Source: Nitrososphaerota archaeon | Lineage (GTDB): Archaea; Thermoproteota; Nitrososphaeria; Nitrososphaerales; Gagatemarchaeaceae | DNA length: 64,000 nt | Assembly (NCBI GenBank): GCA_029785615.1 | Contig: JAFLZH010000001.1 | Location: 289,044-353,043, forward strand | Direction: 5' to 3' | Part shown: positions 52,650 through 61,291 of the stretch, piece by piece | How positions within the stretch are numbered: position 1 is the stretch's first letter | Layout of the letters: the number at the start of each line of letters is the position of its first letter | Made by a program: the position numbers and the translations under genes | The notes under the pieces: generated by a model | Database searches by the model: none | Told to the model about the DNA's origin: nothing | Seen by the model: the letters and a program-made list of their open reading frames with translations, nothing else

Positions 52650-53558
52650 ATGGTCAAGGAGCCGCTGGTCTACGTCGACGGCAGGTTCGTCGAGAAGTCG
52701 AAGGCGGTCGTCTCAGTCTTCGACCACGGGCTCCTCTACGGAGACGGCGTCTTCGAAGGGATAAGGGCGTACAACGGGAGCGTATTCAGGCTCGCCGACC
52801 ACATCAGCCGGCTCTACGACTCTGCAAAGGTCATCCGGCTCAAGATGCCCATCGACGAACGCGAGATGACCGCGGCGGTCCTGGAGACGATGAGGAAGAA
52901 CGACTTGAGGGATGCGTACATCAGGCTCGTCGTGACCAGGGGCGCAGGCGACCTGGGCGTCGACCCCGCCCTCTGCAAAAGCCCCACTGTCTTCATCATC
53001 GCCGAGCCCATGGCCAGCTCCCTGGGGCCGAGGGAACCGAGGGTTGTCAGGATGATATTCTCGTCCTACAGGAGGGACGCCGTCGACGCCACCTCACACG
53101 AGATAAAGTCTCTAAACTACATGAACAGCATCCTCGCGAAGATGGAGGCCAGCAGCGCCGGGGCGGACGACGCCATCATGCTCGACCACAGGGGGTTCGT
53201 ATCCGAGGCGAGCGTCAGCAACATCTTCATTGTCAAGGACGGGAAGCTGTCTACCCCATCCTCGGGGGCGGGGATCCTCCACGGCATCACCAGGAGGCGC
53301 GTCATCTCGCTCTGCTCCGACCTCGGGCTGGAGGTCGCGGAGAGGGACATCACCCCGTTCGAACTCAGCACCGCAGACGAGGTCTTCCTAGTGGGGACGA
53401 AGTCCGAGGTCCTGGCGGTCGGCTCCGTCGGCGGGGTGGACATCGGGACCGGTGGCGTCGGCGGGGTGACGAGGAAGCTCTACGGCGAGTTCTCGAAGGT
53501 CGTCCGGAGGGCCGAGGAGGGCACCCCGGTCTACGAGCCCGAACGAGTGAGAGCCTGA
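52650..53558 (+). CDS. ilvE: Branched-chain amino acid aminotransferase (class IV PLP)
   Basis: YVDGRFVEKSKAVVSVFDHGLLYGDGVFEGIRAY; EIKSLNYMNSILAKMEA; EASVSNIF. Confidence 0.9.
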   Translation: MVKEPLVYVDGRFVEKSKAVVSVFDHGLLYGDGVFEGIRAYNGSVFRLADHISRLYDSAKVIRLKMPIDEREMTAAVLETMRKNDLRDAYIRLVVTRGAGDLGVDPALCKSPTVFIIAEPMASSLGPREPRVVRMIFSSYRRDAVDATSHEIKSLNYMNSILAKMEASSAGADDAIMLDHRGFVSEASVSNIFIVKDGKLSTPSSGAGILHGITRRRVISLCSDLGLEVAERDITPFELSTADEVFLVGTKSEVLAVGSVGGVDIGTGGVGGVTRKLYGEFSKVVRRAEEGTPVYEPERVRA

Positions 53559-53586
53559 CCCGCACCCTTCCAAGCAGGGCGCTATT

Positions 53587-53624
53587 CCGGCGTTTTTCCG
53601 CCTGAAAAGGGCAGAATACGCCGG
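53587..53624 (+). terminator. Inverted repeat downstream of ilvE
   Basis: CCGGCGT (53587-53593) / ACGCCGG (53618-53624) with nested TTTTC/GAAAA. Confidence 0.3.
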
Positions 53625-53841
53625 TTCAACGGCTTAGGCGTGCCATTCTTGCTCCGAATTGCCAGAGAGACCGGGAGAGGGCTCTTGACATCCGGCCGCC
53701 GCACCCTTGGTTATGGCTAAGACCTGCTCCAGCTTTGGCTTCGCAAAATCTAAATACGCGTTCAAAATCGGCCCCCAAGGGGCCCTGTTCCGTGTATTGT
53801 TCGAGTGAGGTAGTCCGTATTATCAATGGAGGTAAACCGGC

Positions 53842-54141
53842 ATAGCAGCGCCGAAGACAGCGACCAAGAAGACCGTCAAGAGGAAGAAGGTCGAGGACGA
53901 GGTCCCAGCCTTCAAGGTCAGCACGCACTTCCTGATCCCAAAGCATGAGCTTCTTACCAAGGAGGAGGCCGCCCAGGTGGTCGCCAGGTCCAGCGCCTCG
54001 CCTTCGCAGTTCCCATACATCCAGTCGACGGATTCGATAGCGAAGGAGATCGGCGCGAAGCCCGGAGACTTCGTAAGGATCACGAGGACCAGCGAGACGG
54101 CCGGCACCAGCGTGTACTACCGGTACGTGGTGGAGGGATAG
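53842..54141 (+). CDS. rpoH: DNA-directed RNA polymerase subunit H (Rpb5 C-terminal homolog), apparent ATA start
   Basis: (M)AAPKTATKKTVKRKKVEDEVPAFKVSTHFLIPKHELLTKEEAAQVVARSSASPSQFPYIQSTDSIAKEIGAKPGDFVRITRTSETAGTSVYYRYVVEG; immediately upstream of rpoB; missing from the supplied ORF track because no ATG/GTG/TTG starts the frame. Confidence 0.9.
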   Translation: MAAPKTATKKTVKRKKVEDEVPAFKVSTHFLIPKHELLTKEEAAQVVARSSASPSQFPYIQSTDSIAKEIGAKPGDFVRITRTSETAGTSVYYRYVVEG

Positions 54142-54144
54142 AGA

Positions 54145-57100
54145 TTGAGCAAACAGATCGCAAACAACGCCTGGGTAATCCTGAGCGACCTGCTCCAGAG
54201 GGAGGGGGTAGCGCGGCAGCACCTTAACAGCTACAACGAGTTCGTGACCAGGGGCCTGCAGAACATCGTCGACGAGATCGGCGAGGTCGAAATAGAGACT
54301 GTAAGCACTCCATACAAGATAAAGTTCGGCAGGGTGACCCTGGGGTCCCCCCGGGTCGTAGAGATAGACGGCTCAGTCAGCAGCATCCTCCCGATGGAGT
54401 CGAGGCTGCGGAACCTGACCTATTCGGCGCCTATCCTCCTCGAAATGACCATCGAAGAGGAAGGGCTCCCGCGCGACACCACACGCCAGCACATCGGGGA
54501 CCTCCCGGTGATGGTGAAGAGCGAGCTCTGCCAGCTCTCGAACCGCTCGAGGGACCAACTCATAGATTCAGGCGAAGACCCCAACGACCCCGGAGGCTAC
54601 TTCATCATACACGGCGCGGAGAGGGTGATAGTCGGTCTCGAAGACCTCTCCCCCAACAAGATACTCGTCGACGCTGAGAAGCTCGCCGGTGCCACCACCT
54701 ACAAGTCCCGGGTATATTCGTCGGTCGTGGGGTACAGGTCGAAGCTGGAGTTGACCCTCAAGCAGGACGGCGCCATCAACGTCAAGGTCCCCAGTTGCCC
54801 TGTCGACCTTCCCTATGTGATCGTCATGCGCGCCCTCGGGATAAAGTCGGACAAGAGCATCGCCGACGCCGTCTCCCCGAAGCCCGAGATCCAGGACCTC
54901 CTCGAGGTCTCCTTCGACAAGGCGAGCGAAGCGCCCACGGAGAAGGACGCCCTGGTCTTCATCGGGAACAGGGTCGCCCACGGCATGCTCGAGGAGTTCA
55001 GGGTCAAGAGGGCCCTGTCCATGCTGGACTGGGGGCTGCTGCCTCACCTGGGCAAGACCGAGGACAAGCGCTTCGACAAGTCGATGTTCATGGGCGAGGC
55101 CGCATGCAAGCTGCTAGAGCTGAGGCTGGGCTGGATCGAGGCGGACGACAAGGACCACTACGGGAACAAGGTGATAAAGTTCGCAGGCCAGATGCTGGCC
55201 GACCTCTTCAGGACAGCCTTCCGCAACCTGGTGAGGGACATGAAGTATCAGCTCGAAAGGACGGGCCAGAAGCGGGGAGGGAACGTCGTCGGCGCAGCCA
55301 TCAGGACAGGGATAATCACTGACAAGCTCAACAACGCCATCGCCACCGGGAACTGGGGGAGGGGGAAGGTCGGAGTCACCCAGCTCCTCGACAGGACCAA
55401 CTACCTCAGCACGCTGAGCCACCTGAGGCGGGTCCAGTCTCCGCTCAGCAGGAGCCAGCCGAACTTCGAGGCCAGGGACCTGCACGCGACGCACTTCGGC
55501 AGGATTTGCCCGTCTGAGACCCCTGAGGGCGTCAACTGCGGCCTGGTGAAGAACCTCGCGCTGTCCGCCATCATATCGGTCAGCGTCCCGTCGCAGGAGG
55601 TAGAGGAGAAGCTCTGGGAGCTTGGCGCCAAACAGATCCGCGACGCCGACCAGAAGCTGCAGGTGGAGGGGTGCAGGATATTCATGGACGGGAGGTTCCT
55701 GGGATACGTCGACGACGGCGAGCGGCTGGCGAAGGCGTTCCGGAAGCTGAGGCGCGAGGGCCAGATCAACCCCGGCGCCAGCGTCCTCCACGTCATCCCG
55801 GTGAACGAGAACGCCTACCCCCGCGTCTACATCAGCCTCAGCTCCGGCAGGGTCCTGAGGCCGCTGGTCGTGGTGGAAAGTGGCCGCCCTCTGCTAAACC
55901 CCGAGGTCATCGACAAGGTCAGCACGGGCCAGACTTCATGGAGGGACCTGGTAGACCAGGGAGTCATCGAGCTGATAGACGCCAACGAGGAGGAGAACTG
56001 CCTGGTGTCCATGGGCGCCGATGACGTCTCCACCAAGAACAGCCACATGGAGCTCTTCCCCGCGGCGATGTTCGGCATCGCGGCGTCCATCATACCGTAC
56101 CCTGAGCACAACCAGTCCCCGAGGAACACCTACGAGTCGGCGATGGCGAAGCAGAGCCTCGGCTTCAGCTCCCCGACTTATCCGATATCTCCACACGTGC
56201 GCCAGCACCTGCTGGTGAGCCCCCAGGCGCCGGTGGTCCGCACTCGGACGCTCGACCTGCTGAAGATAGACGAGCGCCCGCTGGGGACGAACTGCGTGGT
56301 GGCTGTCCTCTCCTTCGAGGGGTACAACATAGAGGACGCGATCATCTTCAACAGGTCCAGCGTCGAGAGGGGGATGGCCCGGTCGTTCTTCTACAGGCTC
56401 TACGAAGGCGAGGCGAAGCAGTACCTCGGCGGGATGCGCGACACCTTCGAGGTCCCGGCCGCCGACTCCAACATCCGCGGGTACAGGGGCGAGAAGTTTT
56501 ACCGCCTCCTCGAGGGAGACGGGATCGTCGCCCACGAGTCGCAGGTGACCGGCGGGGACGTGGTGATAGGCAGGACCAGCCCTCCGAGGTTCATGGAAGA
56601 GTACAAGGAGTTCGAGATCAAGGGGCCCTACAGGCGGGACACTTCCGTCGCCGTCCGGCCGTCCGAGGCCGGGGTGGTCGACTCCATTTTCATGACCGAG
56701 AACGTCGAAGGAGGCAAGATGTTCAAGGTGAGGGTCAGGGACATGAGGGTCCCTGAGATAGGCGACAAGTTCGCCTCCAGGCACGGCCAGAAGGGGGTCA
56801 TCGGGCTGGTGGTCCCCCAGGAGGACATGCCCTACACAGCCGAAGGGATCGTCCCGGACGTGATAATCAACCCCCACGCCTTCCCGTCCAGAATGACCGT
56901 TGGCCAGTTCATCGAATCGATAGCGGGGAAGGCCGCTGCCTTCCGCGGTTCGCCTGTCGACGGTTCAGCCTTCGCCGGGGAGAGCATCGACGAGATGGAG
57001 AAGGTCCTCAGGGGCAAGGGCTTCGAGCCCACGGGGAGGGAGGTAATGTACGACGGGAAGACGGGGAAGAAGTTCGCGGCCGACGTCTTCGTCGGGGTGG

Positions 57101-57498
57101 TCTACTACCAGAAGCTCCACCACATGGTCGCAGACAAGATACACGCCAGGGCCAGGGGCCAGGTGCAGATGCTCACCAAGCAGCCCACCGAAGGGAGGGC
57201 TCGGGGCGGAGGGCTCAGGTTCGGGGAGATGGAGAGGGACTGCCTCATCGCCTACGGCGCCTCCATGGTCCTCAAGGACAGGCTGCTGGACGAGGCCGAC
57301 AAGACCGAGATCTACGTGTGCGAGAAGTGCGGCCTGATCGCCTACTACGACGCCAAGCAGAGGAAGTACTCCTGCAAGATAGACGGCGACCAGGCGAAGA
57401 TATCCACCGTGGTGGTCGCCTACGCGTTCAAGCTGCTGCTCCAGGAGATGATGAGCCTGAACATCGCGCCGAGGCTCCAGCTGAAGGACAAGGTATAG
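54145..57498 (+). CDS. rpoB: DNA-directed RNA polymerase subunit B (unsplit)
   Basis: 1117 aa; GYNIEDAIIFNRSSVERGMARS, RMTVGQFIESIAGKA, C-terminal CEKCGLIAYYD zinc motif. Confidence 0.97.
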   Translation: MSKQIANNAWVILSDLLQREGVARQHLNSYNEFVTRGLQNIVDEIGEVEIETVSTPYKIKFGRVTLGSPRVVEIDGSVSSILPMESRLRNLTYSAPILLEMTIEEEGLPRDTTRQHIGDLPVMVKSELCQLSNRSRDQLIDSGEDPNDPGGYFIIHGAERVIVGLEDLSPNKILVDAEKLAGATTYKSRVYSSVVGYRSKLELTLKQDGAINVKVPSCPVDLPYVIVMRALGIKSDKSIADAVSPKPEIQDLLEVSFDKASEAPTEKDALVFIGNRVAHGMLEEFRVKRALSMLDWGLLPHLGKTEDKRFDKSMFMGEAACKLLELRLGWIEADDKDHYGNKVIKFAGQMLADLFRTAFRNLVRDMKYQLERTGQKRGGNVVGAAIRTGIITDKLNNAIATGNWGRGKVGVTQLLDRTNYLSTLSHLRRVQSPLSRSQPNFEARDLHATHFGRICPSETPEGVNCGLVKNLALSAIISVSVPSQEVEEKLWELGAKQIRDADQKLQVEGCRIFMDGRFLGYVDDGERLAKAFRKLRREGQINPGASVLHVIPVNENAYPRVYISLSSGRVLRPLVVVESGRPLLNPEVIDKVSTGQTSWRDLVDQGVIELIDANEEENCLVSMGADDVSTKNSHMELFPAAMFGIAASIIPYPEHNQSPRNTYESAMAKQSLGFSSPTYPISPHVRQHLLVSPQAPVVRTRTLDLLKIDERPLGTNCVVAVLSFEGYNIEDAIIFNRSSVERGMARSFFYRLYEGEAKQYLGGMRDTFEVPAADSNIRGYRGEKFYRLLEGDGIVAHESQVTGGDVVIGRTSPPRFMEEYKEFEIKGPYRRDTSVAVRPSEAGVVDSIFMTENVEGGKMFKVRVRDMRVPEIGDKFASRHGQKGVIGLVVPQEDMPYTAEGIVPDVIINPHAFPSRMTVGQFIESIAGKAAAFRGSPVDGSAFAGESIDEMEKVLRGKGFEPTGREVMYDGKTGKKFAADVFVGVVYYQKLHHMVADKIHARARGQVQMLTKQPTEGRARGGGLRFGEMERDCLIAYGASMVLKDRLLDEADKTEIYVCEKCGLIAYYDAKQRKYSCKIDGDQAKISTVVVAYAFKLLLQEMMSLNIAPRLQLKDKV

Positions 57499-57502
57499 AG
57501 AT

Positions 57503-60500
57503 ATGTCAATGGAACAGGCTCTCAAGACGATAGGCGGGATCAACTTCGCGGTCTTCTCGCCAGCGGAGATCAGGAAGTACTCCGTCGCCGAGATTACCCA
57601 GCCGGAGACCTACGACGAGGACGGGATGCCCGTCCAGGGGGGCCTCATGGACAGCAGGCTCGGGACCCTGGAGCCGGGACAGAAGTGCGGCACCTGCGGC
57701 AGCACCGCGGGGAGGTGCCCCGGGCACTTCGGCCACATCGAGCTGGCGGAGCCAGTGCTCCACATCGCTTTCGTGGACGAGATCAACCGGCTGGTCCAGA
57801 CGACGTGCAGGTCCTGCGGAAGGATACTCCTCCCTCAGCAGGAGCTCGACGCCTACAGGACGAAGCTGACCAGCCAGACCGACTTCACCCCGTCGCTGGT
57901 GGAGGGGGTCGCAAAGGAGATCGTGACGAAGGCGAAGAAGGTCAAGCTGTGCCCACACTGCGGGAAGCAGCAGTACCAGATCGAATTCACAAAGCCCACC
58001 ATCTTCCACGAGATCACAGAGGAGGGTGGGGCGACCCGGCTCCTGCCGGTGGCGATCCGGGAGCGCCTCGAGAGGATCAACAACGAGGACCTCGGGCTCC
58101 TCGGGTTCAACTCCAAGGCGGCCAGGCCTGAGTGGTTCGTCCTCCAGGTCCTCCAGGTGCCGCCCCTCACCGTCCGCCCCTCCATCACCCTCGAATCCGG
58201 CATCAGGTCGGAGGACGATCTCACCCACAAGGTGGTCGACATCCTCAGGGTCAACCAGAGGGTGCGCGAGTCCAAGGAGTCAGGGACGCCGCACCTCATC
58301 GTCCAGGACCTGGTCGACCTGCTCCACTACCACGTCACCACATACTTCGACAACGAGGTGTCAGGGATCCCGCAGGCCCACCACAGGTCGGGGAGGCCCC
58401 TGAAGACCCTCAGCCAGAGGCTGAAGGGGAAGGAGGGAAGGTTCAGGGGGTCGCTCTCAGGGAAGAGGGTCGACTTCTCCAGCCGCACGGTGATCAGCCC
58501 AGACCCCAGCCTAGACATAGGCGAGGTGGGCGTCCCCTATGAGGTAGCGAAGAAGCTCACGATACCCGAGAAGGTCTCCCCGTTCAACATCGAGCACCTG
58601 AAGGAGCTGGTGAACAGGGGGCCGTTCGAACACCCCGGGGCAAACTACGTCATCAGGCCCGACGGCGTGAAGATCAGGCTGGACTTCGCCAGCGACAGGA
58701 AGGCTCTGGCCGACTCCCTGGTCCCCGGATACATAGTGGAGAGGCACCTGATGGACGGGGACGTCGTACTCTTCAACAGGCAGCCGTCGCTTCACAGGAT
58801 GTCCGTGATGGCGCACTTCGTGCGCGTCCTCCCGTTCAGGACCTTCAGGCTCCACCCGTCCGTCTGCCCGCCGTACAACGCTGACTTCGACGGGGACGAG
58901 ATGAACCTCCACGTCCCCCAGAGCGAGGAGTCCAGGTCAGAGGCCCTCATGCTCATGAGGGTGCAGGACCAGATACTCTCGCCCAGGTACGGGGGCCCGA
59001 TCATAGGGGGGATCAGGGACTTCATCACCGGCGCGTTCATGCTCACGAGGGACGAGGCGCTGCTGACCCCGGGCGAATTCTCGAACCTCGCCCTGGTGGG
59101 TGACTTCGTCGGGGACCTCCCAGAGCCGGCGGTGAAGGGACCCCACCCCATGTATACCGGCAAGCAGCTGTTCTCTCTCTTCCTCCCCAAGGGGATGAAC
59201 TACGTCCTCACCTCGAAGTGGGCGAAGGCCCAGAGGACCGGGGCCACCAACGACGTCGTGATACGCGACGGGGAGCTGATCTCCGGCGTGGTGGACAAGG
59301 CGGTCATAGGGGCCGAGGAGCCGGACTCCCTGCTGCACAGGATAGCCAAGGACTACGGCAACGAGGACGCGCGCAACTTCCTCAACTCTATACTCAAGGT
59401 GCTCAAGACCTTCCTCACGCGGAGGGGCTTCACCTACGGGTTCAACGAGCTCGAGCTCCCGGCCGAGGCGAAGAAGGGGATCACCGACGCCCTCGACGAG
59501 GCCTACTCGAGCGTCACGGACCTCCAGAAGAAGTACAAGACTGGCTCGCTGCAGCTCACCAGGGGGCTCTCGGCCGAGGACACTCTCGAGGCCTACATAG
59601 TCAACGAGCTAGCGAAGGCGAGGGACAGGGCCGGAAGGATCGCCGACAGGGCGTTCCCCGCCGAGAACTCCGGGATGATAATGGCCAGGACGGGGGCAAG
59701 GGGTTCGAGCCTCAACGTCGGGCAGATGACCGCGGCCCTCGGGCAGCAGTCCGTCCGCGGCAAGAGGATCAGCCACGGCCTGAGAGGGAGGGCCCTAAGC
59801 CACTTCGCCTGGAACGACCCTTCGCCGACCGCGAAGGGGTTCGTGAAGAGCAACTACAGGGACGGCCTGTCGCCGACTGAATTCTTCTTCCACGCCATGG
59901 GCGGCCGCGAAGGGCTGGTGGACACGGCTGTCAGGACCCAGCAGAGCGGCTACATGCAGAGGAGGCTGGTCAACGCCCTGGAGCACCTGAAGGTGGAGTA
60001 CGACCTCACGGTGAGGGACCCCCACGGACACATCATCCAGTTCCTCTACGGCGAGGACGGCGTCGACCCAGCCAAGAGCGACCACGGCCGGCCCATCAAC
60101 CTAGATCGGCTGGTCGAGACGGAGGAGCTCTCCTACAAGTCCAAGGCGAAGGTGGACGAAGCGGAGCTGGGGAAGCTCCTGAAGAAGTACCAGCCGCTGC
60201 TCAACGAGAGGCTGCTCAAGGAGCTGAACGACAAGCTCGGGAACTCTCACCTGACCGAGGACGGGCTCAAGGAGACGATGGAGAAGGTGGCCGAGGCCCT
60301 CGACTACTCGAGGGTGGAGCCGGGCGAGGCGTCCGGCATCGTCGCCGCCCAGTCCATAGGGGAGCCGGGCACCCAGATGACCCTCAGGACCTTCCACTTC
60401 GCAGGGGTCCGCGAGAGGGACGTCACCCTGGGGCTCCCGAGGCTGATGGAGCTGGTGGACGCCAGGAAGATACCGGCGAAGCCTTCCATGGACATCTACC

Positions 60501-61291
60501 TCACCAAGGAGTACGCCGCCCAGAACGAGAAGGCGGTCAAGGTGGCGAAGGAGATACTCTTCACCAAGGTAGGGAACGTCGTCGCCTTCAGCGAGGTCGA
60601 CCCCACCGAAGGGATCAAGCTTCACCTCAACCCCGAGATGATGGCCGACAGGGACACCAACCCCGAGGAGATCGCGAAGGTGATCGAGACCGGGAAGAGG
60701 AAGGTCCAGCAGGACAAGCGGAACCCGAACATCATCCACGTCAGCATGCCGGAGGCCGACCTTTCGGCCCTGTTCACCCTCAGGAACAAGATCCTCAACA
60801 TGAAGCTGAAGGGGATCCCGGGGATCACCAGGGTCACCGTGGTGAAGGAGGGGGAGGAGTGGTTCATCCAGACGTCGGGCTCGAACCTCGGCAAGGTGGT
60901 GCAGGTCCAGGGGGTCGACCAGGCCAAAGTCTACACCAACAACGTCCACGAGGTCGCCCAGGTCCTTGGGATAGAGGCTGCCCGCGCTACCCTCGTCAGG
61001 GAGCTGATGAGCACCCTGGACGAGCAGGGGCTCGAGGTCGACATCCGCCACATCTTCCTGGTGGCCGACCTGATGACGTCCAAGGGCTACATCCAGCAGA
61101 TAGGCAGGCACGGCATCGCAGGGACCAAGAGCAGCGTCCTCGCCAGGGCTGCCTTCGAGATCACCGTCCCGACCCTCGCCGAGGCTGCGGTGAAGGGCGA
61201 GGTGGAAGACCTGAAGGGGGTCACCGAGAACGTCATCGTCGGGCTCCCGATACCCGTGGGGACCGGGATGATCGACCTCTACATGAGCTGA
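57503..61291 (+). CDS. rpoA: DNA-directed RNA polymerase subunit A, fused A' and A''
   Basis: 1262 aa; CGTCGSTAGRCPGHFGHIEL, YNADFDGDEMNLHVPQ (A') and GEPGTQMTLRTFHFAGV...GLPRLMELVDARK (A'') in one ORF. Confidence 0.97.
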   Translation: MSMEQALKTIGGINFAVFSPAEIRKYSVAEITQPETYDEDGMPVQGGLMDSRLGTLEPGQKCGTCGSTAGRCPGHFGHIELAEPVLHIAFVDEINRLVQTTCRSCGRILLPQQELDAYRTKLTSQTDFTPSLVEGVAKEIVTKAKKVKLCPHCGKQQYQIEFTKPTIFHEITEEGGATRLLPVAIRERLERINNEDLGLLGFNSKAARPEWFVLQVLQVPPLTVRPSITLESGIRSEDDLTHKVVDILRVNQRVRESKESGTPHLIVQDLVDLLHYHVTTYFDNEVSGIPQAHHRSGRPLKTLSQRLKGKEGRFRGSLSGKRVDFSSRTVISPDPSLDIGEVGVPYEVAKKLTIPEKVSPFNIEHLKELVNRGPFEHPGANYVIRPDGVKIRLDFASDRKALADSLVPGYIVERHLMDGDVVLFNRQPSLHRMSVMAHFVRVLPFRTFRLHPSVCPPYNADFDGDEMNLHVPQSEESRSEALMLMRVQDQILSPRYGGPIIGGIRDFITGAFMLTRDEALLTPGEFSNLALVGDFVGDLPEPAVKGPHPMYTGKQLFSLFLPKGMNYVLTSKWAKAQRTGATNDVVIRDGELISGVVDKAVIGAEEPDSLLHRIAKDYGNEDARNFLNSILKVLKTFLTRRGFTYGFNELELPAEAKKGITDALDEAYSSVTDLQKKYKTGSLQLTRGLSAEDTLEAYIVNELAKARDRAGRIADRAFPAENSGMIMARTGARGSSLNVGQMTAALGQQSVRGKRISHGLRGRALSHFAWNDPSPTAKGFVKSNYRDGLSPTEFFFHAMGGREGLVDTAVRTQQSGYMQRRLVNALEHLKVEYDLTVRDPHGHIIQFLYGEDGVDPAKSDHGRPINLDRLVETEELSYKSKAKVDEAELGKLLKKYQPLLNERLLKELNDKLGNSHLTEDGLKETMEKVAEALDYSRVEPGEASGIVAAQSIGEPGTQMTLRTFHFAGVRERDVTLGLPRLMELVDARKIPAKPSMDIYLTKEYAAQNEKAVKVAKEILFTKVGNVVAFSEVDPTEGIKLHLNPEMMADRDTNPEEIAKVIETGKRKVQQDKRNPNIIHVSMPEADLSALFTLRNKILNMKLKGIPGITRVTVVKEGEEWFIQTSGSNLGKVVQVQGVDQAKVYTNNVHEVAQVLGIEAARATLVRELMSTLDEQGLEVDIRHIFLVADLMTSKGYIQQIGRHGIAGTKSSVLARAAFEITVPTLAEAAVKGEVEDLKGVTENVIVGLPIPVGTGMIDLYMS

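Follow-up and report, generated by a model that had tools for sequence, protein, structure and literature searches.

A conserved NTA codon overlapping a leader stop codon as the predicted start of rpoH in uncultured archaea

In a genus of uncultured archaea and one genome of a sister genus, the gene for RNA polymerase (RNAP) subunit H (rpoH) appears to begin at a non-canonical codon, usually ATA, which forms a 4-nt overlap with the stop of a hitherto unseen leader ORF, itself conserved and 17 codons long. We consider it probable, on the strength of the aligned sequences, that termination-reinitiation at this overlap couples the translation of the two ORFs, the restart taking place at NUA.

Results

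Identity and setting of rpoH

The window analysed here is a 64,000-nucleotide stretch (contig C11:289044-353043) of the 1.39-Mb archaeal genome G000. The rpoH product matches Pfam PF01191 (RNA_pol_Rpb5_C) over residues 24-96 with E 3.6e-27 and 94.4 bits, well past the curated cut-off of 23.5, and thus belongs with RpoH, as a sequence-only reading of this DNA had supposed. That reading had also located a Shine-Dalgarno (SD) motif GGAGGT, an in-frame TAA (53833-53835), the ATA codon and the terminal TAG (54139-54141); these coordinates are all correct (Table 1), eight nucleotides do separate GGAGGT from ATA, and on re-reading there is again no in-frame ATG, GTG or TTG ahead of the conserved core. 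It was equally right that rpoH precedes rpoB, which adjoins it, and that the ORF track misses the gene: the table-11 caller detected only a 54-aa rpoH fragment, from GTG 53977. In gene order and in the RpoH/Rpb5 protein domain, the locus resembles the archaeal rpoH-rpoB-rpoA operon, from which it differs in that a leader ORF and a non-canonical start stand before rpoH. The rpoH stop and the rpoB start overlap as TTGA in several relatives. We also noted that rpoA (window 57503-61291) is a single 1262-aa gene in which A' and A'' are fused; in another family of the order, an rpoH match at G047:C6:97591 lies inside a 1206-codon open frame, a possible rpoH-rpoB fusion.

Table 1. Features at the rpoH locus (window coordinates)
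Feature	Position	Strand	Remarks
BRE/TATA-like promoter element AAAATCTAAATA	53745..53756	+	near-invariant in 26-genome alignment; role predicted from archaeal consensus
Leader ORF, 17 codons + stop	53792..53845	+	start and stop kept in 26/26; coding-like substitutions; homologues in g2, g5, g7
SD GGAGGT inside leader (AAT GGA GGT = Asn-Gly-Gly)	53828..53833	+	motif kept in 26 genomes
4-nt stop/start overlap ATAG	53842..53845	+	rpoH ATA 53842-53844 over leader TAG 53843-53845
rpoH (RNA polymerase subunit H / Rpb5 C-terminal domain)	53842..54141	+	99 aa counted from ATA; PF01191
rpoB	54145..57498	+	TTG start; next operon gene after rpoH; from ORF list

The start codon in related genomes

We found rpoH in 52 of 61 related genomes, and in 39 of 46 genomes of the family. 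The start site was readable in 26 genomes (25 of the same genus, plus G033 of a sister genus; mostly MAGs), many of which are close relatives, so that all counts below are counts of related rows. The first codon of rpoH is ATA in 20 genomes, TTA in three, GTA in one and TTG in two; neither ATG nor GTG occupies the start site in any of the 26. The comparison with close relatives that the sequence-only reading had called for thus yields NTA in 24 genomes, TTG in two and no ATG. A sequencing or assembly error, A for G, had been its alternative, and a single base change would indeed restore ATG; the chance of this is close to nil, since NTA recurs in 24 genomes that were assembled independently in separate projects, and ATGG would in addition remove the stop codon of the leader. 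The layout conserved in the 26 genomes is far beyond chance or error, and the non-canonical rpoH start is, as judged from these sequences, a conserved feature and not a mistake.

Could RpoH begin elsewhere? In 12 of the 26 genomes, G000 included, the stretch from the in-frame stop to the PKHEL core contains no ATG, GTG or TTG. In another nine, such codons occur only downstream of NTA, in the Lys-rich tail or the approach to the core, and at unconserved places. In three more (G003, G026 and G024), an in-frame ATG or GTG stands two codons ahead of NTA, and such a codon also occurs downstream; the upstream codon sits only ~2 nt from the SD. The remaining two genomes are the TTG-start pair. The GTG and TTG codons inside the tail of some relatives, and the NTG at -2 in three, could suggest a different start for RpoH, either the upstream NTG or a codon that is downstream or otherwise non-standard; with such codons unconserved, and wholly lacking before the core in 12 genomes, we regard this as highly improbable. 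Moreover, the RpoH N-terminus that begins at NTA aligns with the canonical 'GTG/ATG CCA GCA AAR' starts of other genera. In a tree built from RpoH and part of RpoB, TTA has three separate origins, and the two TTG genomes are nested within an ATA clade.

The leader ORF and its overlap with rpoH

The codon discussed above is one half of an overlap: TAG, the last three bases of ATAG, is the stop codon of another reading frame, that of the leader, and this explains why the NTAG pattern is kept. The leader reads GTG TAT TGT TCG AGT GAG GTA GTC CGT ATT ATC AAT GGA GGT AAA CCG GCA TAG, and its peptide follows the pattern of a GTG/TTG start, [V/L]YC...NGG...stop. All 26 genomes have a start codon (GTG in 21, TTG in five) and, at the same place, a stop codon (TAG in 22, TAA in two, TGA in two), so that the overlap takes the form NTAG/NTAA in 24 and TTGA in two. 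Inside the leader, the SD is GGRGGT in 24 genomes; the remaining two have AGGAGAT. Initiation at AUA behind an SD, as first proposed for this gene, is supported in so far as the protein begins there: the codon is NTA in 24 of 26 genomes, and the N-terminus matches canonical starts elsewhere. That proposal, in which the codon might also tune RNAP subunit dosage, missed the overlap with the leader stop, which indicates how the codon is probably used.

The base before the leader stop is also the first base of the rpoH start: it is A in 20 genomes, T in five, G in one and C in none, whereas third positions in the genes of C11 are A in 8% and C in 44%. This bias fits a need for a start-like codon at that position, although the relatedness of the rows weakens the count.

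Several properties suggest that the leader may be translated. Among pairwise differences in its 16 internal codons, second positions have the fewest (810, against 1366 and 1381). Amino acid exchanges are conservative, with a mean BLOSUM score of 0.76 compared with -0.23 +/- 0.43 for column shuffles, of which 17/1000 scored as high; only 6/1000 column shuffles were free of stops in all sequences. With an ORF this short and rows this related, the coding test is moderately strong only. Upstream, the position of the promoter-like element leads us to expect a transcript start at ~53776-53782, near 53780, where a conserved GGGGCCCTG begins; the leader would then be the first ORF of the mRNA.

Two other candidates at this site were rejected. 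A conserved out-of-frame ATG (53826-53828, in AATGGRGG), taken as the true start followed by a +1 shift, corresponds to the leader codons AAT GGR (Asn-Gly), and its frame closes after 10-20 codons in several genomes. A conserved GGGCCCTG, taken as part of a longer leader (GPC...), is out of frame in G033 and more likely marks the transcript start. There was no Rfam match in 53550-54250 up to E 0.5, and no consensus fold that would indicate a conserved RNA structure in the leader.

Leaders in other genera

Homologous leaders precede rpoH in three further genera of the family, in which the rpoH start is canonical (ATG/GTG). In genus g2, the leader '...FCLRLVLVFNRGGCA' ends in TAA or TAG, and the GTG of rpoH follows immediately. 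Genus g7 has 'VYSRPMLELIMKGEVS' TGATG and 'VHCTLFLGLTVDGGIPA' TAATG, and an ATG leader start in one genome. In genus g5, 'VYFMKRLLFFMEGGEQ' TAA A ATG places the stop one base before the rpoH start. No clear leader ends at the rpoH start of G066 (g7) or G035 (g6). Across genera, stop and start stay close together and the leader retains an SD within it.

The phase of the leader relative to rpoH differs by genus: -1 in the main genus, 0 in g2 and +1 in g5. This bears on a programmed -1 frameshift at the leader stop, which would generate a leader-RpoH fusion. Within the genus, rpoH is indeed in frame -1 relative to the leader, and the upstream SD has a counterpart at some known -1 sites; but the codons before the leader stop vary freely, with no shared slippery heptamer, no conserved stimulatory structure emerged from the search for a consensus fold, and the sister genera combine phase 0 or +1 with canonical rpoH starts. 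A conserved frameshift fusion is thus very unlikely; the three reading phases argue against it and support termination-reinitiation.

De novo initiation is another alternative: the strong SD would bring a 30S subunit straight to AUA, independently of the leader, and the weak start would limit RpoH output. GGRGGT does stand 8 nt ahead of NTA in 24 of the 26 genomes, and some genes are known to use rare starts, as infC does with AUU. Nevertheless, we consider this explanation unlikely; it does not account for a start codon that always overlaps a kept stop, for conservation of the leader ORF across genera, or for the same overlap at a second gene, carB.

A second case at the carA/carB joint

The carA/carB joint lies at G000:C11:~291624 (window ~2581; L187). 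The carB start overlies the carA stop as GTAA in 10 and GTAG in six of 20 genus genomes (16 in all), and as GTGA in the other four; elsewhere we observed GTGA in eight g6/g7 genomes and ATAG in two g2 genomes, giving totals of 18/30 for NTA and 12/30 for GTG (the joint of G016 was read by eye). The residues that follow NTA (KKVLVIGSG) are the conserved CarB N-terminus, and most of the NTA cases have no canonical in-frame start near it. The distance between the carB SD and GTA is not the usual one. GTAA and GTGA are one base apart, and either leaves the reading of carA intact (TAA or TGA); that the joint has switched back and forth between them suggests that GTA and GTG are nearly interchangeable here.

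Two side observations concern these genes. In nearly all g1, g6 and g7 genomes, carA contains an NTG (GTG/ATG/TTG) three codons before its stop. In addition, a ~21-25 nt insertion precedes FDYSGSQ in carB of L203 (G005), L204, L205, L206, L202, L267, L268, L270 and L272-L276, and is absent from other genus members; it forms a hairpin with paired stem variation (GCTGG..CCAGC, GCCGCT..AGCGGC, GCCAGT..ACTGGC) and contains an internal stop codon. This insertion is a candidate archaeal mini-intron or translational bypass.

Non-standard starts are rare

We surveyed the start codons of 246 conserved genes in the whole of G005, contig C11 of G000 and half of contig C13 of G008; the survey omits carB (its G005 copy is interrupted) and rpoH (its leader is below 50 codons). 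It contained 22 ordinary NTGA -4 overlaps (upstream ORF of at least 50 codons), two CTG start candidates and, beyond carB, no NTA start, which speaks against a general switch to ATA starts among these genes. NTA restarts are rare. The tRNAs of these genomes are intron-rich, and ARAGORN is unreliable on them.

At top6B (G000:C11:73936; L218), a CTG start is conserved (TTG in G002, G019 and G010) and in many genomes has a GGAGGTGGT-like SD ahead. A nuoK-like gene at G000:C11:~89890, noted in the survey, has an apparent CTG start that overlaps the upstream stop (CTGA). Separately, top6B, the gene for topoisomerase VI subunit B, carries in 12 genomes (L233-L244) an extra T, GAGTTCTTTCTACCG in place of the GAGTTCTTCTACCG of L217-L232, with a nearby 0-frame stop; UUU-C is here a candidate site of programmed +1 frameshifting.

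Discussion

Experiments in Haloferax volcanii and E. coli have demonstrated termination-reinitiation at 4-nt overlaps (PMC6728339). The arrangement at rpoH has much in common with this type of coupling (PMC6728339, PMC10666635, PMC12548453), which likewise occurs in archaea and involves co-directed ORFs, four shared bases and an SD in the upstream ORF: in all 26 genomes four nucleotides are shared (NTAG/NTAA/TTGA) and an SD (GGRGGT or AGGAGAT) lies inside the upstream ORF. The difference is in the start, which is NTA over TAG/TAA in 24 of 26 genomes at rpoH and NTA in 18 of 30 at carB, and in the upstream ORF of rpoH, a leader of no more than 17 codons. In published surveys, which describe such overlaps with NTG starts only, the -4 overlap is ATGA/GTGA or NTGA by definition (PMC10666635, PMC12548453), and one of them reports G in the third position of all start codons (PMC10666635). 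Within the open-access library searched, we found no archaeal case of an AUA start codon. Also comparable is the delivery of ribosomes to a coupled gene by a short uORF (discussed in PMC12548453), in that a short leader stands directly ahead and stop and start are coupled; here, in contrast, several genera seem to share a conserved peptide, and the codon for restart is a non-canonical one.

A further parallel is bacterial infC, which encodes IF3 and is autoregulated through its rare AUU start: there too, a near-cognate start is conserved in an essential information-processing gene. However, the product here is an RNAP subunit and not an initiation factor, and its start lies over a stop codon and takes several NTA forms. 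We know of no autoregulation by RpoH.

We favour, as the probable explanation, the coupling of leader and rpoH outlined at the outset, and we envisage its steps as follows. On a leader-rpoH-rpoB-rpoA transcript, rpoH would be the second cistron. After translating the 17-codon leader near the 5' end, a ribosome would terminate at UAG (in relatives, UAA or UGA); kept in place, as 30S or 70S, by the SD GGRGG within the leader, it would restart one base back, on the overlapping NUA (AUA, UUA or GUA), which initiator tRNA would read as Met. Initiation factors normally reject NUA, and under ordinary initiation one would expect AUA, UUA and GUA to serve very poorly as starts; in the proposed restart, stop codon and SD would position the ribosome, such that codon identity would matter little. 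While translation of the leader, restart at NUA and insertion of Met are inferred, the arrangement itself, its conservation, the coding-like pattern of the leader, the canonical starts at the joint in sister genera and the parallel at carB are all read directly from the genomes. The non-standard codon persists partly because a change of ATAG to ATGG would destroy the leader stop; even so, ATAA and GTAA are one base from ATGA and GTGA, yet are kept in many genomes, so NUA seems to work well enough.

More tentatively, NUAA/NUAG overlaps might form a hidden class of restart sites at which any NUA, perhaps any NUR, would serve because its position is already set; rpoH and carB might then be its first natural cases, missed or truncated by annotation pipelines. 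Gene finders that accept only NTG starts have a blind spot for such starts. If the proposal is true, a ribosome that restarts at a stop codon is bound by looser start-codon rules, and AUA, UUA or GUA can be the starts on which essential genes (rpoH and carB among them) depend in these uncultured archaea, which come from soil, groundwater and mine waste. The choice of codon in termination-reinitiation (by a positioned 70S/30S or by a new scan for a start codon) becomes open to direct tests, since nature has separated position from codon identity in one gene across many species. Finally, the RNA polymerase operon would gain a predicted, conserved 17-residue leader peptide.
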